DNA from: Chlorobiaceae bacterium
GTDB taxonomy: Bacteria > Bacteroidota > Chlorobiia > Chlorobiales > Chlorobiaceae
NCBI GenBank assembly: GCA_013335115.1
Contig: JAAXWQ010000001.1
Span: 1-64,000, forward strand
DNA: 64,000 bases
Direction of reading: 5' to 3'
Position numbers and translations under genes: made by a program. The notes under the pieces were generated by a model. It did no database searches and was not told where the DNA came from. It saw nothing but the letters and a program-made list of their open reading frames with translations. Numbering within the stretch: position 1 is the first letter of the stretch; each line of letters starts with the position of its first letter. This document shows positions 25,803-62,110 of this stretch, piece after piece.

Positions 25803-26749
25803 ATACCGCACCGGTGAAGGTTTCCGTCATCATCGTCTCATTCAACACGCGGGAGATTCTCAGGAATTGCCTGCAGTCGATCCGGCGTGCATATTTTGGA
25901 TTCAGTCATGAGATCATTGTCATTGACAACAACTCAATTGACGGCTCTGCCGAGATGGTAAAACATGAGTTCCCTCATGCCATCCTGGTGGAAAATGACC
26001 ACAACAACCTGTTTTCGAAAGCAAACAATCAGGGCGCGGCGATTGCGCAGGGCGAGTATCTGCTTCTGCTGAACAGCGATACACTCGTCGAAAACGGAAA
26101 CATCGAAAAACTGGCCGGGCTTCTTGATACCTCCTCGGGCAACATCGCCTGTGCCGGGCCGGTCGTGCTCAACGAAAACCGCAGCCAGCAAAGCGCGGGA
26201 TATCCATTGCCATCCATACAGGAGCGGATTAGTGCTGTTTTCCATCTGAACAGGCTCCTTCCAAGATTTGCGTCAAGAATCATACTACCGAAGGGAACTC
26301 CAGGGATTTATGATGAGACGCACCGTACCGGCTGGGTTTCGGGATGCTGCATGCTGGTGAGAAGCGATGTCTACAGGATGCTCGGCGGCCTGAACGAGGG
26401 GCTGGAGTTCTATGGCGAAGAGCCTGAATTCTGCATGAGGCTTGAACAGAACGGTTTTGAGACCTGGCTGGTACAGGATGCGTCGATCATACATCTCGGA
26501 GGCCAGTCAAGCGGGCATGAACAGGCATCGTTTCTTCAGGATCCGAACGGCTCGCTCAGGCGTTATGCCGCATTGCAGCAATACACGGTGGGCCTGAGGC
26601 AATCCATCATCATGTCGCGTATCGTCCTGGCTGCAGCATGGCTCAAGTATGCGCTCTCCGGAAACAGGCGCCGGGAGTATTTCAAAACCGCGATATCCCA
26701 TGAACAGGCCGTGATCGCCTATATGAAGAAACTGCTCTCAGGTAAATGA
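25799..26749 (+). CDS. GT2 family glycosyltransferase (rhamnosyltransferase WbbL-like)
   Basis: The 316-residue GT-A enzyme begins VSVIIVSFNTREILRNCL. It has NSDT in place of the classical DxD and FYGEEPEFCMRLEQNGF in the acceptor half, a pattern typical of WbbL-like cytoplasmic rhamnosyltransferases. The sugar cannot be assigned. Both ends overlap neighbours by 4 bp, so it is tightly coupled between two GT4 genes. Confidence 0.87.
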   Translation: MNTAPVKVSVIIVSFNTREILRNCLQSIRRAYFGFSHEIIVIDNNSIDGSAEMVKHEFPHAILVENDHNNLFSKANNQGAAIAQGEYLLLLNSDTLVENGNIEKLAGLLDTSSGNIACAGPVVLNENRSQQSAGYPLPSIQERISAVFHLNRLLPRFASRIILPKGTPGIYDETHRTGWVSGCCMLVRSDVYRMLGGLNEGLEFYGEEPEFCMRLEQNGFETWLVQDASIIHLGGQSSGHEQASFLQDPNGSLRRYAALQQYTVGLRQSIIMSRIVLAAAWLKYALSGNRRREYFKTAISHEQAVIAYMKKLLSGK

Positions 26750-27903: not shown

Positions 27904-28387
27904 GCCTACCGGCACGAAACCACCGGTCCGACCAGATGAGCAGACCCTGAACAGCCTCTGGCGCCGGATCACCAAGAGCACCGGGACCCACACGTCGTCC
28001 CTGGCGTTATTGTTTTCGTCCTGTCCATGACTGACGGAGTTACACTCCCCTGCCATCCTGCGATGGTTGTCCTGTCCTGCCCCCGCCCACAACCGCTGTC
28101 GTCACTCACTCGCCGACAAAAAACCACACATTCTCCCCGCGCCTCACGGTCTGGCATACCATTTGATGTGTATTTCGTATGGCCGCAAGAAAAAACCTGC
28201 ATTGAGGCGGCCGAACCAGCCGCATCGCATCACAACGGCAAAGCCTTGCAGGTGTTTTTTGGTCCTCAACATCTCAATTAGAGACTCGTTGTGAGAATGG
28301 CTGGAAAACCTGAATCACCCTGCCGCTGGCAACAAGGAAACGGGACAGGCAAGAAGGCTCGATAAACTGCGCAAAACATGAGGCGTC
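27904..28387. other. Gap inside the EPS run, no gene seen
   Basis: None of the short frames across these 484 bp has family character or a ribosome binding site. A weak sigma-54-like match (28152-28167, TGGCATA-CCAT-TTGAT) has no enhancer palindrome and is not accepted. The gap splits the otherwise tightly coupled glycosyltransferase run and may be a deletion scar or hold an internal promoter. Confidence 0.5.
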
Positions 28388-29527
28388 ATGAGAGTGTTGC
28401 TCTCCATACCGTGCATGAATCGTGGCGGCACCGAAATGCAGACCCTGTACCTGGCAAAAGCACTGCGCGAAGCCGGCCATACCGTCGGGATTGTCTGCTG
28501 TTTCGAAATCGACCGCGCGGTGGTCGACGAATTCGCAGGGGCTGGCTGCCGTGTTGAACAGTTGGGGCTCCAGCGCAATATTCCTGCGTTCCGCTTCATC
28601 AGCGTCATGAAATCGTTTTACCAGGCCGAGGATCCCGACGTTCTGCATATCCAGTACATGACGCCCGGGGCGCTTTCGATCCTGGCCGCAAAGCTTGCCG
28701 GAGTGTCCAGGATTTTCGCCACGGTACACCAGCCCTACACCCTCGGGCATGGACACAAGGCACTGCTTTTTCTTAAAGCTTCGGCACATTTCTGCGAACA
28801 TTTCATGGCGGTGTCGAAGGTTGTGGAGGCGTCCTGGTTCGGAAACATCAGCGACTGCCCCCCGAATCATCCTCACGGCCGTCCCCGAATGAAGCACTGC
28901 ACGCTGTACAATACCGTTGACACCGAAAAAGTCGCACAACTGTCGGCACGCCAGGACACCGCCGGGTTCAGGCTCGCCTATGGGCTGCATAACGCCTTCG
29001 TTTTTGGATATGTGGGCAGGCTGAGCCACGAGAAAGGTGTAGACATCCTGTTGGAGGCATTCGGGGCGCTTTCACGGAAAACAGCAGAGGCCGGGCTTCT
29101 TGTTGTCGGCGATGGAACCGAACGCGCAACGATCGAAGAGCGGTTCGGCTCGGAAATCTGGTGGAATCGGGTAGCGTTTGCCGGATCCCAGACATGGGAA
29201 TCGGCTATGCGTCACCTGTCGGTCATGGATGCGGTCGTCGTGCCATCCCGTTTCGAAGGCTTCGGGCTCAGCGCCGTCGAGGCCATGGCGGCATCCAAGG
29301 CCGTTGTTGCTTCTGATACCGGCGGACTGTCGGAAATAATAGAACACGGCGTCAACGGGTTGCTTTTCGCCAACGGTGATGTCGACGAACTGGCAGGAGT
29401 GATGGAGTCCCTGATTCGAGACAGGGACCTGACCTCCAGCCTGGCCCGTAACGCCAGGCTAAGGGCGATGGATTTCGATGTGCGCGTATTCAACGGGATA
29501 GTTCAAAATCTTTACCAGCACCATTGA
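28388..29527 (+). CDS. GT4 family glycosyltransferase
   Basis: The 379-residue GT-B enzyme has the N-terminal MNRGGTEMQTLYLAKAL loop, GYVGRLSHEKGVDILLEAF and the donor motif PSRFEGFGLSAVEAMAAS. The Arg/Lys and E-x7-E residues of retaining GT4 enzymes are present. It begins the second half of the plus-strand EPS run, 2 bp before the polymerase gene. Confidence 0.88.
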   Translation: MRVLLSIPCMNRGGTEMQTLYLAKALREAGHTVGIVCCFEIDRAVVDEFAGAGCRVEQLGLQRNIPAFRFISVMKSFYQAEDPDVLHIQYMTPGALSILAAKLAGVSRIFATVHQPYTLGHGHKALLFLKASAHFCEHFMAVSKVVEASWFGNISDCPPNHPHGRPRMKHCTLYNTVDTEKVAQLSARQDTAGFRLAYGLHNAFVFGYVGRLSHEKGVDILLEAFGALSRKTAEAGLLVVGDGTERATIEERFGSEIWWNRVAFAGSQTWESAMRHLSVMDAVVVPSRFEGFGLSAVEAMAASKAVVASDTGGLSEIIEHGVNGLLFANGDVDELAGVMESLIRDRDLTSSLARNARLRAMDFDVRVFNGIVQNLYQHH

Positions 29528-29529
29528 CC

Positions 29530-30723
29530 ATGGAAGACAAGCAGTTTTATGGATTTTATCGATGGGTGTTCTCCGTGCCCCTCCTACCCTATATTTGCGC
29601 TACGTTCCCATCCCTTCCACAAACGGTAGGGCCGTTTGTGGTCACTGGCGTGGCATGGGTGATCATGCTTGCCGTCACCCTCTATTACCTGTTTGCGCTC
29701 CCTCTCAAAGGCAGATTCCCGATCAAATTCTGGCTCCCCTGGACGCTGTTCCTTGCCGTGTACCTCTGTATCGACTTTTCATTCTATGGGCTGCAACTGA
29801 CATTACAATATATACTACCGGTCATGATCGGCATCACCTCTTCCGGCTTTACCTACACCACCAAACGGCTGGAATGGATGTATAAAAGCCTGGTGCGGGT
29901 CACGGTGGTCATCGGCATACTCTTCACCTTCAGATATCTGCTCATGGGAGGCGCAGCACCGATGGCCGGGACTACGCCCATGTTCCTTACCGTAGTAGCA
30001 GCGTTGACCATTGGAATATTCTACCAAACAAAGAAAACGCAATTCCTGATGGGCTATGTCTGCATATCCATCATCCCGCTTATACTCATGACCAGGATGG
30101 GAATTGCAGCCATGCTGATCATTTTCATATTCCATTTTGCCAACAGAGGCATTACCTCCAGAATCACCGTCGGCCTGATTGGCATATTGGCCATCTGGGC
30201 TATTTTCAACTCAAAAGGATTTCAGGAAAAAACATTCAAAGGAGGCAACGGAAACGTTTCCGAGTTATCCATAAATTATTACGATCCGGGCGAGTCGATG
30301 AACACAAGCGGCAGGGCAGGATTCCTGGAATATTACGAAAAAGGCCTCTCAAACGCACCATTGCTAGGCAATGGACCGAGATCAGACCTGTATATCATGA
30401 AAGATCTATGGGGGGGCAATGTCGCAAGCGAAGCCCACAACGACTATATCGCGGTACGCTATAATTATGGATATATCGGCCTCGGGTTACTGCTATTCGG
30501 CTTCGCCATGACATTCTTCTCCACCTATGTACAGCTACTCAAAGAACTTGATGCATACAAATCACTGGTACAGTCAAGCGTACTGGTCCTGACCGTAGCA
30601 TTCCTGGTTTACATGTATTCTGACAACATACTTAAAACGACGGTATTTTTCACCAACCTCTATTTTATCCTCATAGGATTGGCATATGCCAAATTCGACA
30701 CAAAACAGGGGGCAATACGATGA
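29530..30723 (+). CDS. Wzy-type O-antigen/EPS polymerase or ligase
   Basis: This 397-residue protein has about ten to twelve hydrophobic segments. A large periplasmic loop (about 225-320) ends in SEAHNDYIAV, a Wzy_C/WaaL hallmark. In an EPS locus with a Wzz-type protein it is best read as the polymerase joining undecaprenyl-linked repeat units in the periplasm. The DNA is clearly more A/T-rich than the flanking genes, common for wzy genes moved by transfer. ATG at 29530 is preferred over an upstream TTG at 29524. It overlaps the next gene by ATGA. Confidence 0.85.
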   Translation: MEDKQFYGFYRWVFSVPLLPYICATFPSLPQTVGPFVVTGVAWVIMLAVTLYYLFALPLKGRFPIKFWLPWTLFLAVYLCIDFSFYGLQLTLQYILPVMIGITSSGFTYTTKRLEWMYKSLVRVTVVIGILFTFRYLLMGGAAPMAGTTPMFLTVVAALTIGIFYQTKKTQFLMGYVCISIIPLILMTRMGIAAMLIIFIFHFANRGITSRITVGLIGILAIWAIFNSKGFQEKTFKGGNGNVSELSINYYDPGESMNTSGRAGFLEYYEKGLSNAPLLGNGPRSDLYIMKDLWGGNVASEAHNDYIAVRYNYGYIGLGLLLFGFAMTFFSTYVQLLKELDAYKSLVQSSVLVLTVAFLVYMYSDNILKTTVFFTNLYFILIGLAYAKFDTKQGAIR

Positions 30724-31652
30724 ATATATCGGTTGTCATACCACTGTACAACAAGCGGGATACCATTTGGAGAACTATTGATTCCGTGCTTGAACAAACA
30801 TATCCGGCACAGGAAATCATCGTCGTAGATGACGGATCGACCGATTCCGGCGGGCAAGGTATAGAAGAAATGAACATTCCGACCCTCAGGATGATCAGGC
30901 AGGATAATGCTGGCGTGTCCGCCGCGAGGAACCGCGGCTATATCGCGGCAATGTCGGAATGGGTCGCATTCATCGATGGCGATGACGAGTGGCATCCCGA
31001 CTTCCTGAAAACCATCTCCGAAATGGCCGTATCGTTTCCCGGGTATGAAGTTTATGCAACGGCATACCTTGCCGGAGACGATCAAGGCTACACACAGCCG
31101 ATCAGGTTGAACAAGTTGCCATTCGATGGCGAGTGCGGAGTGCTCGAAAATTATTTCGACATGGCAGCCTGCTCAGATCCGCCGTTATGGTCGTCGGCAC
31201 TCTGTGTGCAACGTGAAGCGCTGGAACTTGTCGGAGGATTTCCGTTGCATATCCGTTCTGGCGAAGACCTCCTGACCTGGGCACGCCTTGCCGCCAGGAA
31301 GCCTCCGGTCTACTGCACCCGTCCGCTGGCGGTGTTCTGGCAGGACCGGGCACACACCTACGACGAGAAGCCGAACCGTCTCCCGGAACCTGAAGACCCT
31401 GTAGGCAAAGCCCTGGAAAGACTGAAAAATGCGGGCAATGGCAATGTGCGGCATATCAACCGTTACCTGTCGATGTGGCACAAGATGCGTTCGTCGATCT
31501 ACCTGCGGCTCGGATTCCATGGCCGCGCATTCATGGAGGCGCTGAAGGGGATTTACCACCATCCGTCGAACAGCAAGCTCTACGCCTACCTCATGCTGTG
31601 TTTCATTCCAACGGCATCGGCAAACCGATGCTTCAAACGATTCGGGCGCTGA
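30720..31652 (+). CDS. GT2 family glycosyltransferase
   Basis: The 310-residue GT-A enzyme begins MNISVVIPLYNKRDTIWRTI. It has IIVVDDGSTD for the nucleotide and FIDGDDEWHP as the metal-binding DxD region. The C-terminal part (about 230-300) is helical and basic, often membrane-associated. It is coupled by ATGA to the polymerase gene. Confidence 0.88.
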   Translation: MNISVVIPLYNKRDTIWRTIDSVLEQTYPAQEIIVVDDGSTDSGGQGIEEMNIPTLRMIRQDNAGVSAARNRGYIAAMSEWVAFIDGDDEWHPDFLKTISEMAVSFPGYEVYATAYLAGDDQGYTQPIRLNKLPFDGECGVLENYFDMAACSDPPLWSSALCVQREALELVGGFPLHIRSGEDLLTWARLAARKPPVYCTRPLAVFWQDRAHTYDEKPNRLPEPEDPVGKALERLKNAGNGNVRHINRYLSMWHKMRSSIYLRLGFHGRAFMEALKGIYHHPSNSKLYAYLMLCFIPTASANRCFKRFGR

Positions 31653-31656
31653 CCGT

Positions 31657-32865
31657 ATGAGCAGCAAAGCAAACATAGCCGCCGTGCACACCGATTTCAG
31701 GCTCTACTGGCCATCGCGCCTCGTCGCGCTTGGCGAGGCCGTTGCGAGCCGGGGCGGGAAACTCTCCGTCATCGAGGTCGCCGGCAAAGGGTCGCCGTAC
31801 AGTTTCGATGCTACGTCCGGCAAAGATTCGGGCATCGCCTGGACACAACTCTTCGAAAACCGTCCCATGGAGGAGATCGAAGCTTCAGAAGCCGTGTCGG
31901 GCATCATGGACAGGCTCGATGCTCTTGATCCGGATGTGGTACTGGCGGGCTCTATCGCATTTCCATCCGGAGCAGCTGCGACCAGATGGTGCACAAAGCA
32001 CAGGCGCCCCCTGGTGGTTTTCGATGATGCACGGCTCGATGATGTCCCGCGTCCGGGATATGTCGATTGGGTGAAACGCCAGGTCTACAGCCACGTCGAT
32101 GCCATAGTAGTCCCCGCACCGTCACACGATGCGACCTATCGTCATTTCGGATTCGCCGCTGAGCGTTTGTTCCATGGGGTCAATGCTGTCGACAACGCAT
32201 TCTTCGGAAGTGGCAGGGCAACTCCCGTCGAGAACCTCCCGCCGTCGCCGTTCCTGTTGTGCGTCGGCAGGCAGATACCGATAAAGAACTGCGCATTGCT
32301 CCTCAAGGCGTTCATGGCCATCGCCGAGCAACCCGAATCACGGGCGTGGAACCTGGTCTTCGTCGGCGAAGGGACCGAGCACGATACGCTGACAAAACTT
32401 GCTGGAGCATTGCACGGCAAGCGGGTCCATTTCGTGCCATTCAACTCCCAGGAGAAACTGTCCTGGTATTACCAGGCGGCATCGGCCATGGTATTGCCAA
32501 GCCTCAGGGAAACATGGGGACTGGTGGTCAACGAGGCCATGGCGGCAGGCCTCCCGGTGCTGGTAAGCAACCGATGCGGTTGCGCCGAAACGCTGGTACA
32601 CGACGGGGAGAATGGATTCGTGTTCGACCCGGAGCGCATCGAGTCGATTTCTGAGAGTTTGCTGAAGTTCTTCGCCCTTGACCGGGCAAAGAGGTCGGTT
32701 ATGGCCGAGAGGTCCCGCGCCATCGTCGCGGACTGGGGCCTGGAGCGTTTTTGCCAGGGCATGTTGGCTGCGTCGGGTTACGTGCAATCGCACGGCAAGC
32801 GGAAGGGCTCACTGGCCGGCAGGATAATCATGGAATTCTGGAATGGCCGCTATCGCCCCGTATGA
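31657..32865 (+). CDS. GT4 family glycosyltransferase
   Basis: The 402-residue GT-B enzyme has LLCVGRQIPIKNCALLLKAF, the donor motif PSLRETWGLVVNEAMAAG and LPVLVSNRCGCAETLV. All fit retaining GT4 enzymes. It starts 4 bp after the upstream GT2 gene and ends 1 bp before the next GT4. Confidence 0.87.
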   Translation: MSSKANIAAVHTDFRLYWPSRLVALGEAVASRGGKLSVIEVAGKGSPYSFDATSGKDSGIAWTQLFENRPMEEIEASEAVSGIMDRLDALDPDVVLAGSIAFPSGAAATRWCTKHRRPLVVFDDARLDDVPRPGYVDWVKRQVYSHVDAIVVPAPSHDATYRHFGFAAERLFHGVNAVDNAFFGSGRATPVENLPPSPFLLCVGRQIPIKNCALLLKAFMAIAEQPESRAWNLVFVGEGTEHDTLTKLAGALHGKRVHFVPFNSQEKLSWYYQAASAMVLPSLRETWGLVVNEAMAAGLPVLVSNRCGCAETLVHDGENGFVFDPERIESISESLLKFFALDRAKRSVMAERSRAIVADWGLERFCQGMLAASGYVQSHGKRKGSLAGRIIMEFWNGRYRPV

Positions 32866-32866
32866 C

Positions 32867-34096
32867 ATGAAGATACTCCAACTGCACAACCATTACGGGA
32901 GCCACTCTGGCGAATCGACCGTGCTCGATGCGCATGCCGGGATTTTGAAAAGCCACGGTCATGACGTGCGCGCGTACACGCGGAGCAGCGTCGAACTCGA
33001 ACGCATGCGTTTCGGCAGGGCCAGGGCTTTTTTCGCAGCGCTGTACAACCCCGCCTCCATTCGCAAGGTGCTCGATCTCATCGATTCATTCAGCCCCGAC
33101 CTGGTCCATATCCATAACCTGTTCCCGCTCCTGTCGCCTTCGGTGTTGCCCGCGATCGCCCGAAAAGGCATCCCGATCGTGATGACGGTGCACAATTACC
33201 GGCTGGTGTGCCCGAACGGCCTTTTTTTCAACGGCGACGGCATCTGCGAACGGTGCGCCGGAGGGAACGAGTGGCAGTGCCTTCGCCATAATTGCGAAGC
33301 GGCTGTCCTGAAAAGCCTCGGATACAGCGTGCGCAATACCTGGGCGAGGATTGCCGGATACTATTCCCGGCATGTGGATGCGTTCCTCTGCCTTACGGAA
33401 TTCCAGAAGCGCAAGATCGTCGAAAACGGCATCCCGGAACGGCGGTGCCACGTATTGCCCAATTTCATCCAACCAATTGAAGAGCACGAACCTGCCGACT
33501 CAGGCACGGCAGACGACAGGGACGGCCTCTTTTTCATCGGCAGGCTCAATCGCCAGAAAGGAGCCGACATCGTCATCGAGGCCGCCAGGCGCTGCCCCAG
33601 GATCCGGTTTTCCCTTGCCGGGGATCCCGATCCGCTATGCGTTGATCTGGGAGCCCTGCCTTCGAACACCCGATGGTTCGGCGTGGTCGACGGCATCGAA
33701 AAGAGCTCGATGTTCAGGAAATCACGGGCGCTCCTGTTCGCAAGCCGATCGTATGAAGGCTTCCCGATGGTCTTCCTCGAGGCGATGCAGCATGGAACCC
33801 CGGTAATAGCGCCACGCCTTGCCGGGTATCCGGAGATCGTTCGGGACGGGGAAAACGGCCTCCTGTTTGACCCTGAAGATCCGGAAGGGCTGGCCGGTGC
33901 AGTCAGGAAAATCTGCGGCGATCCGGCAGTGGCGGAACGGCTGGGGTTGCGTGGCAGGAAAATGCTTGAAGACGAATACGGCAGCGACATCTGGTACCGG
34001 CAATATATGGAGCTCATTGGCGGTATTCGCCGAAATCCCTCGTCCAGCCCAGACACCGTTGAAGCATGTCATGCAGGAATCGCCCGCCCCCCGTAG
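32867..34096 (+). CDS. GT4 family glycosyltransferase
   Basis: The 409-residue GT-B enzyme begins MKILQLHNHYGSHSGEST. It has a Cys-containing loop (CPNGLFFNGDGICERCAGG), FFIGRLNRQKGADIVIEAA and the donor motif ASRSYEGFPMVFLEAMQHG. The open frame begins 8 codons earlier inside the preceding gene; the ATG at 32867 restores the family N-terminus. A gap of about 240 bp with no gene follows. Confidence 0.88.
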   Translation: MKILQLHNHYGSHSGESTVLDAHAGILKSHGHDVRAYTRSSVELERMRFGRARAFFAALYNPASIRKVLDLIDSFSPDLVHIHNLFPLLSPSVLPAIARKGIPIVMTVHNYRLVCPNGLFFNGDGICERCAGGNEWQCLRHNCEAAVLKSLGYSVRNTWARIAGYYSRHVDAFLCLTEFQKRKIVENGIPERRCHVLPNFIQPIEEHEPADSGTADDRDGLFFIGRLNRQKGADIVIEAARRCPRIRFSLAGDPDPLCVDLGALPSNTRWFGVVDGIEKSSMFRKSRALLFASRSYEGFPMVFLEAMQHGTPVIAPRLAGYPEIVRDGENGLLFDPEDPEGLAGAVRKICGDPAVAERLGLRGRKMLEDEYGSDIWYRQYMELIGGIRRNPSSSPDTVEACHAGIARPP

Positions 34097-34336
34097 CCTT
34101 GCAGGAAGATGAACCTGCCGAACACGCCGGACCCGGAAACACCGGGCGGCCATGTCCGGCACCAGAAGCCCCCTCCCCCCTACGCCTTTTACCCCCTGGC
34201 TGTTCCCTGAAGTTCCCGCTGTGGTTCAATCCGATCCACCGGTATACCGATGGCCAGATAGTGGTGCCCGGCAATGTTTGCGAACCGGACGATTCCATGA
34301 TGGCACGTCGATCCGCAACCATTAAAAGCTACCACT

Positions 34337-35194
34337 ATGGACGCACTCGACGCATTGACAGAACAACGTTTTCCCGTCGGACGTGTCCTGGTCAGTTTGA
34401 CAGGGGCCGACGAAGCGATCCTTAAAATTGCCGAGTCGATCAGGACCGGCCGTCCCGGTTATCTCTGCTTCATAGACAGCCGAACGGCGCATCTGGCCAA
34501 TTACGATGAAAGCTATTGCCACATCCAGAACCGTTCGATGTTCACCTTTCCGGACGGCATGCCGGTCGTATGGCACGCCAGGCGCCTGGGAAATGAAGAG
34601 ATTACCAAGGTTTCCGGAAAAGACTTTATGGATAAGGTGTTTGCCGTTTCCGCGAAGCATGGCTTTTCCCACTACTTCTTCGGGAGCACGCCGGAAGTCA
34701 TCGACAGGATCGGCAAGAATCTTGGCAGGATGTATCCCGGGCTCAACATCGTCGGCGCGGTCTCCCCTCCGTTCCAGCCAGTGGAAGCATTCGACATCGA
34801 CGGGCTCGCCGCCGAGCTGAACCGCGTGCGTCCGACCTTCTTCTGGTGCGGACTTGGTGCCCCGAAACAGGAACAGCTGATAGCCAGGCTCCAGCCGAAA
34901 CTGCAGGCCACGGTCTGCGCCGGCGTAGGCCTGGCTTTCGAATACCTCGCAGGCACGGTGCAGCGCGCACCATCGTGGATGTGCCGGACGGGGCTCGAAT
35001 GGGTCTATCGCCTCGCCCAGCATCCGCAACAGCTCCCCCGTGTCATCAAACCGATCATCTGGATGTTCAGTGACCCGACACTCCTGGCCACCGGGAGACG
35101 TGCCGCGATGATCAACAGCAGGCCACCCCGGACCAGCACGATATCGGTTCAGGCCGGAAGACCCCCCGCCCCCGAAGCCACCAAGCAGATGTAA
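34337..35194 (+). CDS. WecG/TagA/CpsF family glycosyltransferase (GT26)
   Basis: GT26 enzymes add the second sugar (for example ManNAcA or ManNAc) to an undecaprenyl-PP-linked first sugar. The 285-residue product has the family motifs FPDGMPVVWHARRLG and FFGSTPEVIDRI, then FFWCGLGAPKQEQ and a GVGLAFEYLAGTVQRAP segment. The C-terminus (GLEWVYRLAQHPQQLPR) is the membrane-binding tail. This fits an assembly line begun by the WecA/MraY-like transferase at 44785. Confidence 0.92.
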   Translation: MDALDALTEQRFPVGRVLVSLTGADEAILKIAESIRTGRPGYLCFIDSRTAHLANYDESYCHIQNRSMFTFPDGMPVVWHARRLGNEEITKVSGKDFMDKVFAVSAKHGFSHYFFGSTPEVIDRIGKNLGRMYPGLNIVGAVSPPFQPVEAFDIDGLAAELNRVRPTFFWCGLGAPKQEQLIARLQPKLQATVCAGVGLAFEYLAGTVQRAPSWMCRTGLEWVYRLAQHPQQLPRVIKPIIWMFSDPTLLATGRRAAMINSRPPRTSTISVQAGRPPAPEATKQM

Positions 35195-35220
35195 ACCATG
35201 GTTCACCATCAAATCAAGTC

Positions 35221-35937
35221 ATGAAAGCTGTCATTCTGGCCGGAGGGTTGGGGTCCCGACTCCAACCGCTCACCCAAATCATTCCGAAGCCGCTGCTTCC
35301 CATAGGAGAAAAGTCAATACTTCAGATCCAGATCGAGCGGCTTGCCGCATTCGGGTTCAAGGAGATTTACCTGGCGACAAACTACAAATCCGACTACATC
35401 GAGCGATTTTTCGGCAACGGTTCGGAATTCGGCGTCACGCTCTCGGTCAGCAGGGAAAAAACGCCTTTGGGCACGGTCGGCCCCCTCGGCCTGATCCGCG
35501 AACACCTTGACGCTCCGTTCGTCGTCATGAATGGAGACATCCTGAGCCTCGTCGATTTCGGCAGGCTCTACGACTACGCACTGTCGCACGATGCCCTGCT
35601 GACGCTGGCGATCAAGAAAGAGATCACCCCCTTCGATTTCGGCAACATCTTTTTCGAGGAAGAACGCGTTACCGGAATCGAGGAGAAACCGGATATCGTC
35701 ATGCATATCCTCGCAGGCATCTACGTCATGAAGCCGGAAATTTTCCGGTTCATTCCCGACAAGGAATTTTTCGGAATGGACACGCTGATCAAATCGATGC
35801 TCGAACAGGGCGCACCCGTGGTCAAATACGACCTGAATGACTACTGGCTCGATATCGGGCGGATCGACGACTACTACACCGCCCAGAGCGAGTACAACAG
35901 GCTCTCAGGCAACACGGAACGGGAGCGTGGGGTATAA
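35221..35937 (+). CDS. Sugar-phosphate nucleotidyltransferase
   Basis: The 238-residue enzyme has the N-terminal LAGGLGSRLQPLTQIIPKPLLP signature, a PLGTVGPLGLI strand, VVMNGDILS with the metal Asp, and EEKPDIV. It activates a sugar-1-phosphate with NTP. It is short, with no left-handed helix domain, and resembles the catalytic domain of HddC/mannose-1-phosphate guanylyltransferase-type enzymes. Neither sugar nor nucleotide can be assigned. Confidence 0.87.
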   Translation: MKAVILAGGLGSRLQPLTQIIPKPLLPIGEKSILQIQIERLAAFGFKEIYLATNYKSDYIERFFGNGSEFGVTLSVSREKTPLGTVGPLGLIREHLDAPFVVMNGDILSLVDFGRLYDYALSHDALLTLAIKKEITPFDFGNIFFEEERVTGIEEKPDIVMHILAGIYVMKPEIFRFIPDKEFFGMDTLIKSMLEQGAPVVKYDLNDYWLDIGRIDDYYTAQSEYNRLSGNTERERGV

Positions 35938-54060: not shown

Positions 54061-54486
54061 TCAAATGGCCTGCCGATGGTACTCCAGGGACCAGAGGTTC
54101 TTTGTGGTATCAAGCAGGGTGATCTTCACGCCGTAGCCCTCCCTCAGGAAGCTGATGATATCACGGTTGTCCCGGAAGGAGCTGAAATTCTCCTCGTGGG
54201 CAAACTTGCCGGCGTAATGGCTGAACACTTCGTCCCTCCGGCCAAGCGTCTGGAAGGTGACCATGACCACATGCTCCACCGTCGACACGCTGACGACCTT
54301 CCTGCTCCGGTAAAGGTCCAGCCATTCGGGCTTGCTGCTACCGGCTATCCTGAAGGTGTCCGATACGGTTTGCCCCACACCCGGCGCGGCGACGGACGGC
54401 TCGTCGTGCCGGGCGGTGCACGCACCAAGCAAGGCAATAATCAAGACCAGCGCCGACGCCGACGAAACCACACCCTTTCCTTCCAT
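54061..54486 (-). CDS. Small predicted lipoprotein (intact copy)
   Basis: The 141-residue product has a signal sequence ending in the lipobox ALLGAC, predicting a lipid-anchored envelope protein. The conserved C-terminal part includes SFLREGYGVKITLLD and NLWSLEYHRQAI. No function is recognised. AGGAGG lies 9 nt before the ATG at 54486. A frameshifted relative lies at 61512-61935. Confidence 0.7.
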   Translation of the reverse strand: MEGKGVVSSASALVLIIALLGACTARHDEPSVAAPGVGQTVSDTFRIAGSSKPEWLDLYRSRKVVSVSTVEHVVMVTFQTLGRRDEVFSHYAGKFAHEENFSSFRDNRDIISFLREGYGVKITLLDTTKNLWSLEYHRQAI

Positions 54487-54674
54487 ATTCCCGTTCCTCC
54501 TGTTTGACCGATCTCCCTGCTTCATACCATTAACTTCCAACAGCGAATGAACTTACAACAATTTTCCCATAAAACGGGCAATCAAACTGCGTTGATTATC
54601 CCCAATCGCCGAAAGAGCCTGAGGGTTCCCAGGATAAGCAGGAGTTTTTGCGGGTGATTGCGTATTTTGACCAG
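54061..54674. repeat. Direct repeat copy A (about 614 bp)
   Basis: This segment and 61512-62110 are homologous in the same orientation. Each carries a small lipoprotein gene plus about 100 bp of nearly identical DNA running to GACCAG. The two copies bound the chitosan-like operon. Copy A keeps the intact lipoprotein gene. Confidence 0.85.
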
Positions 54675-55080
54675 TTCTTTGAGTTGGGTGAGGAAGGAGG
54701 GGAACAGCGCCTGCACCTCATGCAGGCGCTCGTCAAGCTGGTTGGTGTTCTGCTCGCGGCAAACCACCTGTGCAAGCTCGTCCTCGCTGCACTTGAGCAG
54801 GGCATCAATGGACTTGCCGGTCACCGTAAGCTGGGCGAGGTAATGGTTGAGGGTGACCCGGTGAACTTTGAGCTTCTGGGCAATCTGGAACTTGTTGGCT
54901 CCCTCGGCCCTGAGTTGGATGATCCGTCAAATTTGCAGCATGGTGATTGGTCAATTTGCCATAGTACCTCAGGGTTTTACGTGAGGCACCAAAATCACCA
55001 ATCAATCGCCGATTACCTTGTCCGGAGGTGTACCGTATATGACGGAATGTCAGGTAGCCAATCCGTGCTCCGTCCACCAG
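54660..55080 (-). pseudogene. Transposase remnants (IS21 IstA-like)
   Basis: Read across frames on the minus strand, there is a helix-turn-helix segment (NKFQIAQKLKVHRVTLNHYL), then RLHEVQALFPSFLTQLKEL, which resembles the N-terminal part of IstA transposases. Upstream in another frame lies a second fragment (FGASRKTLRYYGKL), also transposase-like. The catalytic core is absent and the frames are broken. The debris lies just inside repeat copy A, marking a rearranged boundary. Confidence 0.6.
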
Positions 55081-55132
55081 AACTCGTCAGGCAATCTCGC
55101 TCCGGAGTGTACACTTTGCCCCGTAATATTCA

Positions 55133-55182
55133 AGCAAGGGATCGGCATCCCTGTTTCCGATGTATCCAATAATTCCACACAT
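55133..55182 (-). pseudogene. 5-prime fragment of glmS (glucosamine-6-phosphate synthase)
   Basis: The minus strand from 55182 reads MCGIIGYIGNRDADPLLE, the invariant GlmS N-terminus with the catalytic Cys2 of class II glutamine amidotransferases. Homology stops after about 17 codons and unrelated sequence follows. It lies 104 bp downstream of the chitosanase-like gene and in the same orientation. It suggests that a glmS gene, supplying UDP-GlcNAc precursor, once ended or followed this operon. Confidence 0.7.
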
Positions 55183-55285: not shown

Positions 55286-56167
55286 TCAGCGGTTTAAAGC
55301 ATCAACACGGGGCCCCGTGGAAGCTGCGGAAACCTGGGGGATTGGATGCCCGCAAAGATTCAGCATGACACTTGCTCCACCTATATGGGAAAGCATCCTC
55401 TGCGTAAGCGACTGGATGGATGGCAGGTTGCGAGGCCATGGGTACTGATTGCCTGAACCGGGAAATATGATATAGAGTATCTGTCCGAGCGGATGGGAGG
55501 GACCAGTTCTGGCTGATACCTGCTTCCCTCCAAGGCGAGCGGCCAGTGCAATTGAGATCTCACCCAGTGGGTGCTTCCGCGGGCCGATGTCTGCAACTAC
55601 AAATCCTGAGGTATAGCCGTTGTCAAGGTTAATGGCTACACCATAATCACCAATTGCCCCAACTCCATGCATACCGGCGAATGTTTCGGGAAAGACTATG
55701 TATGGTATTCGTGACGCATCAACATAACGACGAGGATCTGTTTCGGACCACCGTAAGTCTTTTAAGGCGGTCATGGAGAGATAGTATCCGGCATAGGGTC
55801 CAGATTTCATGATGTATGGTCTGCTGCTATCGGACGGATCGCGAACCAGAACGGTGCCCCACCATGCTTGGCCGGGATATCCAGCATTGGCGAGGTCGTC
55901 AAGACCTGTATTTCGGGGATGGTAGGCGGTCGGAGCACCATCTGCGTCTATGGTCATGAATCCGGTAACATAACCATAGGCGCTTTTGTCCTGCAGGGCA
56001 TAAATCTTGGTCCCCCGATACTTCTTCCATGCCTGGGGTTTCCGCACCGCCGCTTGAACATCAGAGATCACCATAGTGAAAAGCAAGACCCCGAACAGCA
56101 GCATTACCAGCATGAAATGAAGTCTGGAATCTGCAGGATCTCTGTCTGAAATAGGATTATAACCCAT
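55286..56167 (-). CDS. GH75-like chitosanase, membrane-anchored or exported
   Basis: The 293-residue product has a hydrophobic segment at about 18-38 (signal anchor or late signal peptide). The catalytic domain carries motifs of glycoside hydrolase family 75: FMTIDADGAPTAYHP, GLDDLANAG, then GAIGDYGVAI and VADIGP followed by LGEISIALAARLG. GH75 enzymes cleave chitosan, so this may trim or release a partially deacetylated GlcNAc polymer made by the upstream genes. It is the last gene of the operon, 22 bp after the deacetylase. The family call is by motif only. Confidence 0.7.
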   Translation of the reverse strand: MGYNPISDRDPADSRLHFMLVMLLFGVLLFTMVISDVQAAVRKPQAWKKYRGTKIYALQDKSAYGYVTGFMTIDADGAPTAYHPRNTGLDDLANAGYPGQAWWGTVLVRDPSDSSRPYIMKSGPYAGYYLSMTALKDLRWSETDPRRYVDASRIPYIVFPETFAGMHGVGAIGDYGVAINLDNGYTSGFVVADIGPRKHPLGEISIALAARLGGKQVSARTGPSHPLGQILYIIFPGSGNQYPWPRNLPSIQSLTQRMLSHIGGASVMLNLCGHPIPQVSAASTGPRVDALNR

Positions 56168-56189
56168 TGGTACTTACGAAATTTAGGTG

Positions 56190-58661
56190 TTAGACAAGAT
56201 CCACAGTGTCTTTGACAAGAAGACTTCCTTCCGGGGTGAAGACTGAAACCAGTGCTGACTCGCCAAGACGCTGTAACTTGCCACAGGCTGAACACTCATA
56301 GGAACTCCAGAAAAAGTGGGTGATATTCTCAGCCCCACATAGCGGGCATTGAACTAAAACCGCTTCATGGAGTCGTGATTCAATGAAAGACCAGAAGCTT
56401 ACGTCAAAGCCGTCGGCACGAGCACGTTCAAGAAGCGCCCATCCCTGAGGTGTGAGCGTGACATTGCGGTCGTCTATTTCGGCATAGCCGAGCAGGCAGA
56501 CTTCATGGAAATACTTCAAGGCTAGTGATTTCCACTCCCTTGAGCCCGAAACGACACCATAAAGGCGCGGCATAGGCGACCCGGGATTGGAAATGGCATC
56601 AAGCACCAAGACAATCCTGTTCTGATGGATACCCCGGGCATCGTAACTGCGAAGCATGCTGCAGATCTGTTCTGATGATGTGCCGTCAAGCAACCCCGCA
56701 CGGACTTTCTGCTCGATGTCATTCCAGCGTATCTTTCCCTGCTCCTGGACGGCATCAATACCTTCCAAATGATGCTGGTCAGCCTTGCGCCCGAAGACTG
56801 GAATGGCAACCATATTGAAGATAACAGCCATCAACATGGTAAATCCACCGGGCAGAACAGGTATGTTATGAAAGGTAAGGCTGCCTGTTGAGGGCCTGAT
56901 AAAGGGCTTTAGTCCTTGGCCGCCAAACACACGGTTGATTGAATTGAGGCCTTGTTCATCAAGGAAAGGCACACCGACCTGGTTCCCGAAAATCACATGA
57001 TAGGATGAAAAGCCAATGCCGTTGCTTCCCTTTGAAAGGAGATCAATGATGGCTGAGAGGGACTCCTGCGAAATATGGCGGCCGTTGGATGGCCCAACAA
57101 GTCTCATGACAAGGGGCTTTTCTCCTGCTTTGATCCGGAAGGAGGTCATGGTCCTGCCAATCAATTCCCGGTCTTCAGGGGTGCCGGAAATCTCGACACT
57201 TGGCACAAGGAAATCAAATACTTGCGCAAGCAGGGGTATCTCCTGGCCTGAGAGTTCGGCATCGGTGAAATTGAACACGCGTTCTCCCAGAAGTTCTGCA
57301 GAATATTCCACTTTCGACTTCCCTGCCGTCTTGACAGCCTCGCCTACAGTGGCGGCATAATCATAAATTTTTGTGCTCCGCCAGTTGACCCAGGAGTTGT
57401 AATATTTGGTCAGCAGGTCAGTGAGGGTCGGTTTGGTAGCCAGCCCTTGTGACTTTGCGAATGCTTCAATGCTTTGGCTGCTGAAATCATAATCATGGCC
57501 AGTGTAGGAGAGGCCGTCAAGATGGATGCCGTCTATTTTATAGTTCCTGACCAGATCGGTAATTGTGGACTTCATGTATGTTGCAACTTCCGGGTTCGCT
57601 GGAGACATCCAGTTTGCTGAAAGACGACCATTCTGAGCGGTCATGGCCCATGTGTGGTGTTTTCTCAGTGCCTGGGTATCCGAAAGTGCTGGCAACCATG
57701 CGTGTATCTTTACCGTCGGCACTTGCTGGCGTAGCAATGCGAGGGTTTTTTCAAACATGTTATTGGCGCTTTTGGGGCCATAATAATAGTTCCCTTGTGC
57801 GTCTTTGGCCATGAGAAACACATCGGTAATCGATGTCCTTGCAATGTTGGCGGCAATGTATTCGGGAGAAAGCGTCTCTTTACTGAAATCAACCCAGACG
57901 GCATACCGGCTCAGTTTTTGGGTCTGCGTTTCAGCAACATATTGATCGGCTGTGACAAATCGGCCTCCTTCTTTTTTCACAAAATCGATAAAGTTCCTGA
58001 TTGCATTCGGACAGATTGCCGCATTTTTTGGGTGGAGCAGGATGACTGCTGGCTGTCCAAGTTTGCTTTTGCTACGGTAGAGCTCCTTGAGAGCATCCTC
58101 AAACTGCTTTTCACTCATATGCTGCTCAACGATAAGGTCATAATCGGAGGCAAGCATATTACCGCGGCGAATATCGGAAATGGGCAGTTCAGTCAGTACA
58201 CGCTGCGCCTCCCAATGTTCAGAATCTGAGCTATCGTAGAGAAAGCCTTGCGCTTTTAGTGATTTCATGACCCGCTCGTCATATTCCATGTAGGGCGCAC
58301 GAAACCAGACAACCTGCTTTTTGGTGATCGATTCGAGAAGAGTTTTGGACATTCGGATTTCACTATCCAGAGCGTCCTGTGAAATTTGGGGCAGATGCGG
58401 GTGAGCATATGAATGAGAACCGATGGTATTGCCTGCCCGGGCAAGCGTGTCGACAAGCTCGGGGTAGGCGAGAGCAAATTTCCCGGTAAAAAAGTAGGTA
58501 GCTGGAACAGCAATGTTCAAAGTTTTGAGTGCCGCAATATCGCCATCAAGTTCGGTATCGAAGGTGAGTAGCACCGGTACAGGCACGGGTTGAGCTGCGC
58601 AGTTTGTGGACGATGCAAACATTGACACAAACAGGCATACCAACGCAAATATGCTTTTCAT
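56190..58661 (-). CDS. Polysaccharide deacetylase plus glycoside hydrolase with TM and C-terminal zinc ribbon
   Basis: The 823-residue product starts with a signal sequence. A NodB deacetylase domain (about 30-250) has LTFDTE where LTFDDG is usual, HSYAHPH as the zinc His pair, RAPYMEYD and LLHP. Next comes a TIM-barrel-like domain (about 260-560, DGIHLDGLSY), as in PgaB/PelA hydrolase halves. A TM segment (about 602-624) follows, then a winged-helix-like region and a zinc ribbon with Cys at 772, 775, 790 and 793. The tail would therefore be cytoplasmic. GGAG 6 nt upstream decides the ATG at 58661. PgaB-like proteins normally end after the hydrolase domain, so the fusion is unusual. Confidence 0.78.
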   Translation of the reverse strand: MKSIFALVCLFVSMFASSTNCAAQPVPVPVLLTFDTELDGDIAALKTLNIAVPATYFFTGKFALAYPELVDTLARAGNTIGSHSYAHPHLPQISQDALDSEIRMSKTLLESITKKQVVWFRAPYMEYDERVMKSLKAQGFLYDSSDSEHWEAQRVLTELPISDIRRGNMLASDYDLIVEQHMSEKQFEDALKELYRSKSKLGQPAVILLHPKNAAICPNAIRNFIDFVKKEGGRFVTADQYVAETQTQKLSRYAVWVDFSKETLSPEYIAANIARTSITDVFLMAKDAQGNYYYGPKSANNMFEKTLALLRQQVPTVKIHAWLPALSDTQALRKHHTWAMTAQNGRLSANWMSPANPEVATYMKSTITDLVRNYKIDGIHLDGLSYTGHDYDFSSQSIEAFAKSQGLATKPTLTDLLTKYYNSWVNWRSTKIYDYAATVGEAVKTAGKSKVEYSAELLGERVFNFTDAELSGQEIPLLAQVFDFLVPSVEISGTPEDRELIGRTMTSFRIKAGEKPLVMRLVGPSNGRHISQESLSAIIDLLSKGSNGIGFSSYHVIFGNQVGVPFLDEQGLNSINRVFGGQGLKPFIRPSTGSLTFHNIPVLPGGFTMLMAVIFNMVAIPVFGRKADQHHLEGIDAVQEQGKIRWNDIEQKVRAGLLDGTSSEQICSMLRSYDARGIHQNRIVLVLDAISNPGSPMPRLYGVVSGSREWKSLALKYFHEVCLLGYAEIDDRNVTLTPQGWALLERARADGFDVSFWSFIESRLHEAVLVQCPLCGAENITHFFWSSYECSACGKLQRLGESALVSVFTPEGSLLVKDTVDLV

Positions 58662-58692
58662 GATAGGCTCCATATAAATGATTACAAGATGA

Positions 58693-60054
58693 TCACCAGG
58701 TGTTTTTGCGATCCTGAATTTCGTGCGTATAGGCTACGATGCGCATATAACTCAAGAAAATACGGTAGGGCTGTGTTGTGAATGATGCCAGTGCTAGCGA
58801 TGGTGTAAGCATCCGAGCCTGCATCAAGGGAATAATTCCCTGGAATGCACTGATGCATTCCAAAATCAGCATGTATAAAAGACCTAGCTGGAGGAAAAGG
58901 AGTGGCAGGGCGGAAATAATGACGAGGATCGGATAGATCGCAAGGAAAAACAATTCCAGAAATGCGCTGCCATACCCGATAAAAAGAGACCATGGCAGCC
59001 AGAACATGGTGATGGGACCACCAACATCTGAAAACATCATACCCTTGTGCTCCCGGTACACCTGCAAATGCCCCCTAGACCAGCGCAGACGTTGTTTCTT
59101 CAGCCCTTTCCATTTCGTCATTGCTGACGTATATGACACAGCCCTCGGCTCGTAGATTGCCCGATAACCAAGTTCCATCATCTCTAGTGTGATATCGAAA
59201 TCCTCAGCTAGAGTCCTGCTCTTGTATCCTCCGGTTTCAAGCAGCACGCTGCGCCGAAAGGCGGTTGCAGGGCCAGGGCAGATGCTTACGGCGCCCCCTG
59301 ACTTGAACTGAGCGGCTTTTATGATGCTCTGACCATAGATATACTCTATGGTCTGCATCTTGAGCAGATAGCTGTTGTGTCGTTTTGGTAGAACCATCCC
59401 GGCAACGGCCCCAACGGTAGGATCGGTGAAACCTTCTACAAGGTATCGAAGGATTTTAGGGTCAAGTGATGAATCGGAATCGGTAAAAAAAATGATTTCG
59501 CCTTTCGCCTTTTCAATCCCGCGGTTCAGAGCTTCGACTTTCCCTCTGTTGGTGCTCAACCGTATGACTGAAACATCATAGCGCTCGATGATTGGAAGAG
59601 TAAGATCACGCGAGCCGTCATCAACGATGATGATTTCATATGCAGGATAGTCGAGCGCCATTGCCGATTCAATGCATTGGGCGATACTTTCTTCCTCATT
59701 AAAAGAGGGGATGATGACAGATACAAACGGCAGGAAGCTGTTTCTCTTGCTTTTCTTTTGGGGAAGCATGGTCAGCCCGATGAAAAACAGGAAAGGAACC
59801 AACGATCCAACAAGGTAAATAAGGAAAAACATGTCGAGGATCTTATGCATCCATTCCGGAAACGAATGGGTTGCTTCGCCCCACAGGCGAACATTGAGAG
59901 AATCGACCCAGGCAGGCATGAAAGACCATATCACGACTGCGAAAATTATGGAAACCAGGGCAGACAGCAGGACGCCTGCAGGATATCTGATCCGAAAGGG
60001 GGTATCTGTAGCCTCCGCCGCACGGGAGGGATATATTGATGCAGTCTGGTTCAT
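58693..60054 (-). CDS. Processive GT2 polysaccharide synthase (PgaC/NodC/HAS-like)
   Basis: This 453-residue inner-membrane synthase polymerises a beta-linked sugar, most likely GlcNAc by analogy with PgaC and NodC. Two N-terminal TM segments (about 26-48 and 73-95) precede the GT-A domain, which has VSVIIPSFNEE, DDGS, DSDS, SICPGPATAFRR and AEDFDIT. The QRLRW (QxxRW) processivity motif comes next, followed by about three C-terminal TM segments. AAGGAG lies 5 nt before the ATG at 60054. It sits 28 bp after the barrel gene and 31 bp before the deacetylase. Confidence 0.87.
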   Translation of the reverse strand: MNQTASIYPSRAAEATDTPFRIRYPAGVLLSALVSIIFAVVIWSFMPAWVDSLNVRLWGEATHSFPEWMHKILDMFFLIYLVGSLVPFLFFIGLTMLPQKKSKRNSFLPFVSVIIPSFNEEESIAQCIESAMALDYPAYEIIIVDDGSRDLTLPIIERYDVSVIRLSTNRGKVEALNRGIEKAKGEIIFFTDSDSSLDPKILRYLVEGFTDPTVGAVAGMVLPKRHNSYLLKMQTIEYIYGQSIIKAAQFKSGGAVSICPGPATAFRRSVLLETGGYKSRTLAEDFDITLEMMELGYRAIYEPRAVSYTSAMTKWKGLKKQRLRWSRGHLQVYREHKGMMFSDVGGPITMFWLPWSLFIGYGSAFLELFFLAIYPILVIISALPLLFLQLGLLYMLILECISAFQGIIPLMQARMLTPSLALASFTTQPYRIFLSYMRIVAYTHEIQDRKNTW

Positions 60055-60082
60055 TACTTCTCCTTAGGGGTTTACATGGATT

Positions 60083-61057
60083 TCAAAGAATTGGAAACCA
60101 GCAGGCAAGACCTGCCTTTACATCATGTATCAGAAGATGCTGAGGCTCAAAGGCGTTGACGAGCAGATACTCTGCATAGACAGACAGTTTGCCGGGAAGA
60201 ACACGGTCAAGAACCAGTCTTGCCCCAGGGCCGTACTGAACATTGTTGAACCAGGAAGCTTTGTTCCACTCCTTAGTAAGGAAATCATTAACCAGATCAA
60301 CGGTGAGATAGGGTTCGAAAGCGACTTTCCCAATATCTACCCCTGTACCAATTTTGGAAGAGAGCGAACCGAGAAGGAAATTATCTTGACCTTTGGCACT
60401 GAAGGCGGAGGTATGCCATGCAAACTCACCCCAGTTTTCCGTCCAGATGCCGAACTTCTTGTTGAGTGGTTTTTCTTTTGAAAACCAAAAGGAAACACCG
60501 GTCTTCACATTCTGCCGGTCTACAGTAGCCGGAACCCTTTCTTTCGTATTGTCGAATGATGAGGTCATCACCTCATATTCAGAAAACAGGGCTGTGCTTA
60601 TTCCCCCGATATACTCTCCAGATTCGTTCATGAATGAATGCTCGGTGGTAAGCTTCACTCCTGCCGCAAAGATCTGGTTATTATTCCAGTACGACTTGTT
60701 CCATGATTTTTCTCCAAAATCATAGGTTACACTCGTGCGAGCATACGGGGTAAGGCAAAATGTTTCACTGAGGTAGTGCCGTGCTTCGAGAGTCACGGGA
60801 AGAGAAAAAAGGTAATACCCGCTACCGGTTGAGATGTTGCTTTCATCACGGGTATTATCGAAATTATATTTGGTATAGTATGTGTCAAGACCTACATCGA
60901 GATGTATGCCGTCAGCAGGCTTCTGATACCGGTCAACTGCGAATGCCGAGCCATAATGTACAGAGATCCCTGCCCCGTCGACCGCTGATGCGGTCCCCGG
61001 GGCGCAGAGGCTTGCCAGAAGGCAGGCGGTTCCGGTTACTTTTGCTATGATGCTCAT
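60083..61057 (-). CDS. Outer-membrane beta-barrel protein, putative polysaccharide exporter
   Basis: The 324-residue product has a signal peptide (about 1-25, ...TASA). The rest is amphipathic alternating strands rich in Tyr, Phe and Trp at regular spacing (YYTKYNF, LPVTLEARHYL, KSYWNNNQIFAAG), ending in a hydrophobic WFPIL. This is the pattern of a monomeric outer-membrane barrel. It has no TPR part like PgaA or PelB. It is the first gene of the operon, so export of the polymer is the natural role, inferred from context. Confidence 0.7.
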   Translation of the reverse strand: MSIIAKVTGTACLLASLCAPGTASAVDGAGISVHYGSAFAVDRYQKPADGIHLDVGLDTYYTKYNFDNTRDESNISTGSGYYLFSLPVTLEARHYLSETFCLTPYARTSVTYDFGEKSWNKSYWNNNQIFAAGVKLTTEHSFMNESGEYIGGISTALFSEYEVMTSSFDNTKERVPATVDRQNVKTGVSFWFSKEKPLNKKFGIWTENWGEFAWHTSAFSAKGQDNFLLGSLSSKIGTGVDIGKVAFEPYLTVDLVNDFLTKEWNKASWFNNVQYGPGARLVLDRVLPGKLSVYAEYLLVNAFEPQHLLIHDVKAGLACWFPIL

Positions 61058-61372: not shown

Positions 61373-61404
61373 CGGCATTATGAGAAAAACATCTCACCAT
61401 GAGA
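61373..61404. promoter_or_regulatory. Enhancer palindromes upstream of the chitosan-like operon
   Basis: TCTCA-CCA-TGAGA (61392-61404) is perfect. A neighbouring CGGCA-TTA-TGAGA (61373-61385) keeps one full half-site 19 bp away. The arrangement mirrors the tandem sites at 52565-52597. Confidence 0.6.
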
Positions 61405-61448
61405 ACCCCCAGGCCCAATCGAAAATGACCGTGCGCAGAAGAGCAAAT

Positions 61449-61480
61449 GCAAAAAGCCGGGAGATACCCCGGCTTTTTGC
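61449..61480. terminator. Strong bidirectional intrinsic terminator
   Basis: A perfect 13-bp inverted repeat (61449-61461 with 61468-61480) has a 6-nt loop, with A- and T-runs inside the stem ends. It closes the minus-strand lipoprotein copy B and insulates the operon promoter region. Confidence 0.88.
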
Positions 61481-61511
61481 GTGATCATCTATAATGTACT
61501 GGCGGTGCCCG

Positions 61512-61935
61512 TCAGATAGCCTGGCGGTGATATTCGAGGGACCAGAGGTTCCTTGCGGGATCGAGCAGGGTGATCTTCACGCCGTAGCCCTCCCTCAGGA
61601 AGCTGATGATATCGCGGTTGTCGCAAAATGAGACGAATTTCTCGTTTTTGGCAACTTTTCGCGTAATAATTGAACACTTCGTCCCTCCGACCGAGCGTCT
61701 GGATGGTGACCATGACCACGTGGTCCACCCTCGACACGTTGACGACGTGCCCGTTCCGGTAGAGGTCCAGCCATTCCGGCTTTCTGTTGCCGGCCACCCT
61801 GAATGCGCCTGATACGGCCTGCCCGCCACCAGGCGCGGCGACAGGCGTATCGTCGTGCCGGACGGCACAAGCACCGGGCAAGGCCGGAATCATGAACACC
61901 GCCAACGCCGACGAAACTACACCCCTTCCATCCAT
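61512..61935 (-). pseudogene. Frameshifted lipoprotein copy
   Basis: The N-terminal half (signal sequence, lipobox-like ALPGAC, KPEWLDLYRNG) matches the intact gene at 54061 in one frame up to GRRDEVF. The conserved end (DNRDIISFLREGYGVKITLL) is in another frame. A short length change around 61652-61670 separates them. The intact copy at 54061 shows what the joined frame should be. A shifted but expressed product cannot be excluded. Confidence 0.75.
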
Positions 61936-62110
61936 ATACCCTTCCCCCTGTTTGGCAGACCCCCTGATTTACGCCATTAAGTCACAACGGCGAATGAACT
62001 TACAAGAAAACGAGCAATCAAACTCCGTTGATTATCCCCAATCGCCGAAAGAGCCTGAGGGTTCCCAGGATAAGCATGAGTTTTTGCGGGTGATTGCGTA
62101 TTTTGACCAG
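61512..62110. repeat. Direct repeat copy B (about 599 bp)
   Basis: Homologous to 54061-54674 in the same orientation. The last 100 bp (around 62010-62110) are nearly identical, differing at a few bases. Homology stops abruptly after GACCAG, just before the alpha/beta hydrolase gene. Confidence 0.85.

Follow-up and report, generated by a model that had tools for sequence, protein, structure and literature searches.

A four-gene operon of Chlorobiaceae with the predicted parts of a synthase-dependent exopolysaccharide system and a GH75 chitosanase-like enzyme

The described systems closest to the operon reported here synthesize and modify amino-sugar or related polymers. PgaABCD of E. coli, which produces poly-beta-1,6-GlcNAc (PNAG), unites in one operon a GT2 synthase, an outer-membrane barrel and a periplasmic protein that joins a CE4 deacetylase to a hydrolase domain of the PgaB type, a set that our operon shares. 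In Pel (PelA-G), too, a polymer is synthesized, deacetylated and hydrolysed, and exported. The cellulose and alginate operons include a hydrolase or lyase for their own polymer (BcsZ and AlgL, respectively), and NodBC resembles our operon in placing a GT2 enzyme and a CE4 deacetylase on beta-1,4 GlcNAc chains. The main text of a survey of synthase-dependent exopolysaccharide systems (PMC7112194) is silent on chitosanases and on Chlorobi, and our literature search turned up neither a chitosan exopolysaccharide from green sulfur bacteria nor biochemical data on enzymes of this clade.

The window, that is, the whole stretch of DNA analysed, comprises 64,000 nucleotides of a Chlorobiaceae bacterium (contig JAAXWQ010000001.1) with a genome of 2.1 Mb that is 99.6% complete. 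On its minus strand, four ORFs form a single tight unit, separated according to their coordinates by 28, 19 and 22 bp. Gene 1 (60083..61057, 324 aa) encodes a putative outer-membrane exporter in which a signal peptide precedes a beta-barrel with 12 predicted strands, gene 2 (58693..60054, 453 aa) a membrane processive GT2 synthase, gene 3 (56190..58673, 827 aa) a CE4 N-deacetylase continued by a PgaB-like GHL10/13 domain, a transmembrane helix and a zinc-ribbon tail, and gene 4 (55286..56167, 293 aa) an exported GH75 chitosanase-like enzyme. An earlier note, made from the sequence alone, had proposed this minus-strand order of barrel, GT2 with QxxRW, deacetylase-hydrolase and GH75, and all four ORFs were recovered, with matching family assignments for genes 2 to 4 and a predicted barrel for gene 1; its spacing of 22-31 bp is corrected by the values above. 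The operon contains no additional gene, the upstream ORFs all being shorter than 60 aa, and no RNA element was found in the operon region. A pattern scan located a promoter-like site upstream of the operon (61377-61405) and, directly upstream on the minus strand, a strong 14-bp intrinsic-terminator-like hairpin (61449..61480), which forms the boundary between the operon and the gene at 61489-61935. This hairpin was the sole notable match of the scan, whose total counts did not exceed the shuffle mean. Elsewhere in the window, a separate surface-glycan cluster with GT4 and GT2 glycosyltransferases and a nucleotidyltransferase lies on the plus strand (24498-35937).

Gene 2 matched the GT2 family (PF00535, 3.6e-36), and the alignment revealed the full processive-GT2 motif set (DDGS, DSD, AED and QRLRW). 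The QxxRW motif, QRLRW at residues 321-325, has its Q, R and W invariant among orthologues, and hydropathy indicates two N-terminal and about three C-terminal membrane helices. Gene 2 has the DD, DxD, ED and QxxRW motifs together with the membrane helices of a processive GT2 of the PgaC/NodC/BcsA type. Its best-scoring NCBIfam model was PgaC_IcaA (TIGR03937), with 175.6 bits against a cut-off of 422.3, and it scored 115 bits against a cut-off of 550 for NodC (TIGR04242), failing both equivalogs; the positive controls E. coli PgaC and NodC reached 648 and 751 bits on their respective models. Gene 2 lies outside the PgaC and NodC equivalogs, and the earlier note's proposal thereby withstood its own refutation test on the grouping of the synthase. 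Its identity across the alignment is 28% to PgaC and 29% to NodC (33% to NodC locally), and because the two are equidistant, gene 2 does not distinguish a beta-1,4 from a beta-1,6 linkage.

Gene 3 matched Pfam models for CE4 deacetylase (1.8e-22), GHL10 (3.1e-14) and GHL13 (4.7e-7). The CE4 domain (about residues 34-250) contains the motifs TFDxx, H(S/T)xxH, RxPY and LxH, the first as a DxE variant, with invariant residues D39, T40 and E41; H87, S88 and H91; R125, P127 and Y128; and L212 and H214. It is followed by the PgaB-like GHL10/13 hydrolase domain (about residues 255-590). The protein failed the PgaB equivalog (TIGR03938, 30.5 bits, cut-off 321.9). The best PDB match of its predicted structure (mean pLDDT 66) in Foldseek was E. 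coli PgaB (4f9j/4f9d, E=2e-14 to 4e-14), and the second domain of the model aligned to the C-terminal hydrolase domain of PgaB with a TM(target) of 0.71; the AlphaFold models were built on only 7-8 sequences. Gene 3 had been described as PgaB/PelA-like: the likeness to PgaB holds at the level of the fold, and the likeness to PelA was rejected because the structural match is PgaB. The HDD motif of PgaB contains a probable catalytic aspartate, D474 in Bordetella (PMC5933820). D386 of gene 3 (GIHLD) falls in or beside this motif in a weak profile alignment, and may tentatively be regarded as its equivalent.

Gene 3 extends about 200 residues past the hydrolase domain, a region overlooked by the earlier note. 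Hydropathy places a transmembrane helix at residues 606-624, followed by GRK, and the C-terminal tail (window 56190-56860) carries a putative zinc ribbon of four cysteines (C776, C779, C794 and C797) that are invariant among orthologues, its Pfam zinc-ribbon matches being weak. Because the enzyme domains would lie outside the inner membrane and the transmembrane helix intervenes, the predicted topology makes the tail probably cytosolic. Downstream of the operon in three Chlorobium genomes is a separate gene of 256-262 aa with the same kind of tail, at 43-48% identity (L060:11478-12266, L061:4926-5714 and L062:6123-6893). Contig C10 carries a tail-less paralogue of gene 3, 40% identical, which adjoins a gene for a GT2 of 700 aa both there and in other members of the family, at a locus that includes neither GH75 nor barrel. 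This second, simpler deacetylase-hydrolase with its adjacent GT2 (G000:C10:18950-22830; L035:8952-12828) appears to belong to another uncharacterised polysaccharide system.

Gene 4 has a hydrophobic segment at its N-terminus, as judged by hydropathy. It scored 25.6 bits (1.6e-5) against the GH75 model PF07335, 1.4 bits below the 27-bit cut-off, and matched the solved viral GH75 chitosanase V-Csn (7tvm) in phmmer with 4.3e-22 over 198 residues. The active-site acids of V-Csn, D34, D36, D148 and E157 (PMC9485262), correspond to D74, D76, D193 and E203 of gene 4, which are invariant in the 8 orthologues. The V-Csn match and the four retained acids make the sequence-based assignment to GH75 firm, and uphold the earlier GH75-like annotation of the last gene, the PF07335 score being slightly sub-threshold. 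The family also has GH75-like genes in G100 and G005 and a Pfam match in G023, all of them stand-alone and part of no such operon. Inside a type IV secretion cluster on a Vibrio aerogenes plasmid, a GH75 gene with 48% identity to gene 4 runs on the opposite strand (L041:11938-12687), and 11 IMG/VR viral contigs (L091-L101) contain GH75 relatives of 35-40% identity. A defence or phage role was discarded, as PADLOC returned zero matches and annotated phages had zero GH75 matches.

Gene 1 has an N-terminal signal peptide and 12 beta-strands in its AlphaFold2 model (mean pLDDT 69). It matched nothing in Pfam or NCBIfam, TPR included, and blastp against PgaA was not significant (E=6). Foldseek returned generic outer-membrane barrels (OmpG, autotransporter domains, CymA and FapF; TM of about 0.4) and no match specific to polysaccharide porins, the confidence of the model being moderate. 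An outer-membrane barrel is thus a credible class for gene 1 on the strength of the model, with no specific exporter type indicated by Foldseek. The absence of TPR domains from the porin, as originally proposed, agrees with a 324-aa protein consisting of the barrel alone.

The occurrence of the operon was investigated by searching each gene separately across the family (close-type GH75, GT2 and barrel), and the long gene 3 across the phylum. All four genes were present in the identical 8 of 86 Chlorobiaceae genomes (G000, G019, G047, G045, G049, G024, G071 and G044), and never apart; the gene 1 barrel is confined within the family to these carriers. Two sets of 8 among 86 would coincide exactly with a chance probability of about 2e-11, shared ancestry and joint transfer being ignored. 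In seven genomes, from two genera, the genes adjoin one another in a constant order, while in G045 the cluster is divided between two contigs, with transposase genes adjoining the break. The neighbourhood survey thus found the association of the four genes to be conserved. No full-length gene 3 was found outside the 8 carriers among 394 sampled Bacteroidota genomes. Beyond Bacteroidota, where phyla were very thinly sampled, one contig scan with weak N-terminal patterns returned Chlorobiaceae only, plus one unrelated GT2, and plasmid records contained zero relatives of the barrel or of the long gene 3. Named relatives identified by a synthase search were a Chlorobiaceae MAG, Chlorobium sp. N1, C. 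phaeovibrioides BrKhr17 and a Chlorobium MAG; the genus of the window (g1) is distinct from that of the named Chlorobium genomes (g2). Comparison with G047 gave dN/dS values of 0.06-0.15 for the operon, with synonymous sites near saturation, indicating that the four genes are under purifying selection and arguing against a degenerate operon.

The GC content of the operon in the window and in G019 is 49%, compared with 58% nearby. In five of six Chlorobium loci it lies within about two points of the flanks, the exception being G049 (55% versus 63%). The window and G019 sequences are nested among Chlorobium ones in a GT2 tree (supports 94/96 and 91/92) in which the rooting of the operon sequences is uncertain. 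Synonymous divergence between the window and G019 is 0.10-0.12 for the operon, and 0.85, 0.57 and 0.40 for the neighbouring SDR, heavy-metal-resistance-like and TMK genes. Because of the low GC of the operon and its low synonymous divergence between the window and G019, these data fit a horizontal acquisition in the window's genus, with recent exchange.

An imperfect direct repeat of about 600 bp flanks the operon (left 54061-54674, right 61512-62110; 81-95% by segment) and is single copy in G019. The repeat contains a small lipoprotein-like gene. Its left copy and a scrap of glmS lie within about 1.2 kb of sequence missing from G019 at the corresponding place. The downstream debris (54585-55182), also not in G019, consists of this glmS-start scrap and a helix-turn-helix-like gene remnant. 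An IS21-type transposase remnant, suspected by eye between the neighbouring gene and the operon, gave only weak helix-turn-helix matches and was left unnamed. The glmS-start-like remnant (MCGIIGYIGNRDA...) runs outside the operon from 55182 down to about 55126 on the minus strand, amounting to 13-19 codons in translation, and its best DNA match to the intact glmS on another contig (C1:301471-303303) is 30 bp at 87%. No glmS adjoins the operon in the other operon neighbourhoods examined. This fragment had been read as support for a GlcNAc-based precursor; a scrap of this length, seen in the window genome only and with an intact copy elsewhere, was discarded as evidence for an operon-linked precursor.

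We hypothesize that these genes specify a compact exopolysaccharide system of the synthase-dependent kind with a partly deacetylated chitin, or chitosan-like, product, and assign this reading a probability of roughly 0.55. The product is suggested chiefly by the specificity of GH75: enzymes of this family cleave beta-1,4-linked glucosamine chains, and our best guess is therefore a chitosan-like beta-1,4 GlcN/GlcNAc polymer. From its family, the GT2 enzyme would build the chain at the inner membrane from UDP-GlcNAc, or from a comparable nucleotide-activated N-acetylhexosamine, and extrude it. The fold and conserved motifs of gene 3 suggest a membrane-anchored CE4 domain that deacetylates the chain in the periplasm, and an attached PgaB-like domain that would bind the deacetylated product and nick it. 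The secreted GH75 enzyme may then cut well-deacetylated stretches, either setting the chain length or clearing stranded periplasmic polymer, as in the comparison with BcsZ and AlgL, and the small TPR-less barrel could serve as the exit for the product. More speculatively, the zinc-ribbon tail might connect the periplasmic enzyme with regulation and so stand in for PgaD/c-di-GMP control. The complete version, a true chitosan-secretion machine with a beta-1,4 GlcN/GlcNAc product, a stand-alone synthase, two hydrolases, a new TPR-less barrel and regulation via the cytosolic zinc-ribbon tail of a transmembrane deacetylase, is plausible but less likely than not. If true, it would add one more type of synthase-dependent exopolysaccharide system to those for cellulose, alginate, PNAG and Pel.

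The PgaC_IcaA model as the best NCBIfam match of the synthase (175.6 bits), together with PgaB as the top structural match of gene 3, could also be explained by a strongly diverged Pga-type system, in which the product would be PNAG with part of its acetyl groups removed, or something closely similar, and the GH75 enzyme would have changed its preference to beta-1,6 linkages or come to tolerate them. This is unlikely, given that the PgaB and PgaC equivalog cut-offs were all missed by more than half, that PgaD-like and PgaA-like genes are absent from the operon, and that the GT2 is equally far from PgaC and NodC; in addition, we know of no beta-1,6 activity in GH75.

Peptidoglycan deacetylases also belong to CE4, and GH75 genes are found on their own in plasmids and viral contigs, so that the GH75 enzyme and the deacetylase might act in peptidoglycan remodelling or in the use of external chitosan, their adjacency to the synthase being incidental. 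The strict co-occurrence with GT2 and barrel in 8 genomes, with order kept, makes this very improbable, as does the phototrophic life of green sulfur bacteria, to which polymer degradation is of little use. A different amino-sugar polymer (a galactosaminoglycan, or else a glycan that is mixed or lipid-linked), with both hydrolases acting on its deacetylated stretches, would suit the varied substrates of the GT2, CE4 and GHL families, donor specificity being unreadable from these sequences, and the comparable deacetylase/hydrolase logic of Pel (GalNAc), as outlined in PMC12022489. Chitosan is, however, the substrate of characterised GH75 enzymes (PMC9485262), and Pel-type components are absent among the four proteins, which leaves such a polymer rather improbable.

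If the operon indeed makes and trims a chitosan-like polymer, the four-gene cassette would be a tractable tool and would enlarge the known range of synthase-dependent exopolysaccharide systems. The polymer could also account for the attachment of some green sulfur bacteria to surfaces, partner cells or extracellular sulfur. Industrial chitosan is derived from crustacean chitin, and well-defined bacterial producers are scarce.

Comparison of the operon with PgaABCD shows that its synthase and deacetylase fall below the PgaC and PgaB equivalog cut-offs, that PgaD is missing and GH75 added, and that its deacetylase bears a transmembrane helix and zinc-ribbon tail. PgaA has a periplasmic TPR region, whereas the barrel of the operon, with 12 predicted strands, has none. 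The operon differs from Pel in its GT2 of the PgaC/NodC type and in a gene 3 that resembles PgaB rather than PelA; Pfam and NCBIfam scans detected no PelA, PelF or PelB homologues among the four proteins. The role proposed for gene 4 is that of BcsZ and AlgL, but the synthase, hydrolase family and exporter of the cellulose and alginate systems all differ from those of the operon. NodBC is set apart by the sub-threshold NodC score (115 versus 550 bits) and by the added hydrolases and outer-membrane barrel of the operon. The nearest GT2 relatives seen outside the family, at about 32-36% local identity, are fused CE4-GT2 or GH18-CE4-GT2 proteins from plasmid records of other phyla (Kocuria, Sphingomonas and Prevotella), which unite a similar enzyme combination in a single polypeptide, with a GH18 chitinase-type domain in two of the three instead of GHL10; neither GH75 nor an operon-type barrel was seen beside these genes. 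V-Csn shares the GH75 family and the four active-site acids with gene 4, but is a stand-alone viral gene in no synthesis operon. The claimed distinctness from Pga and Pel is therefore borne out by the failed equivalogs, the lack of a TPR porin and of any Pel match, and the extra GH75. Because these defining features were tested and failed, the operon is, as judged from its sequence, a synthase-dependent exopolysaccharide system of new composition and a member of neither group. It would work like a Pga/Pel-type system, with a PgaB-like fold, an added GH75 enzyme and a simpler exporter.
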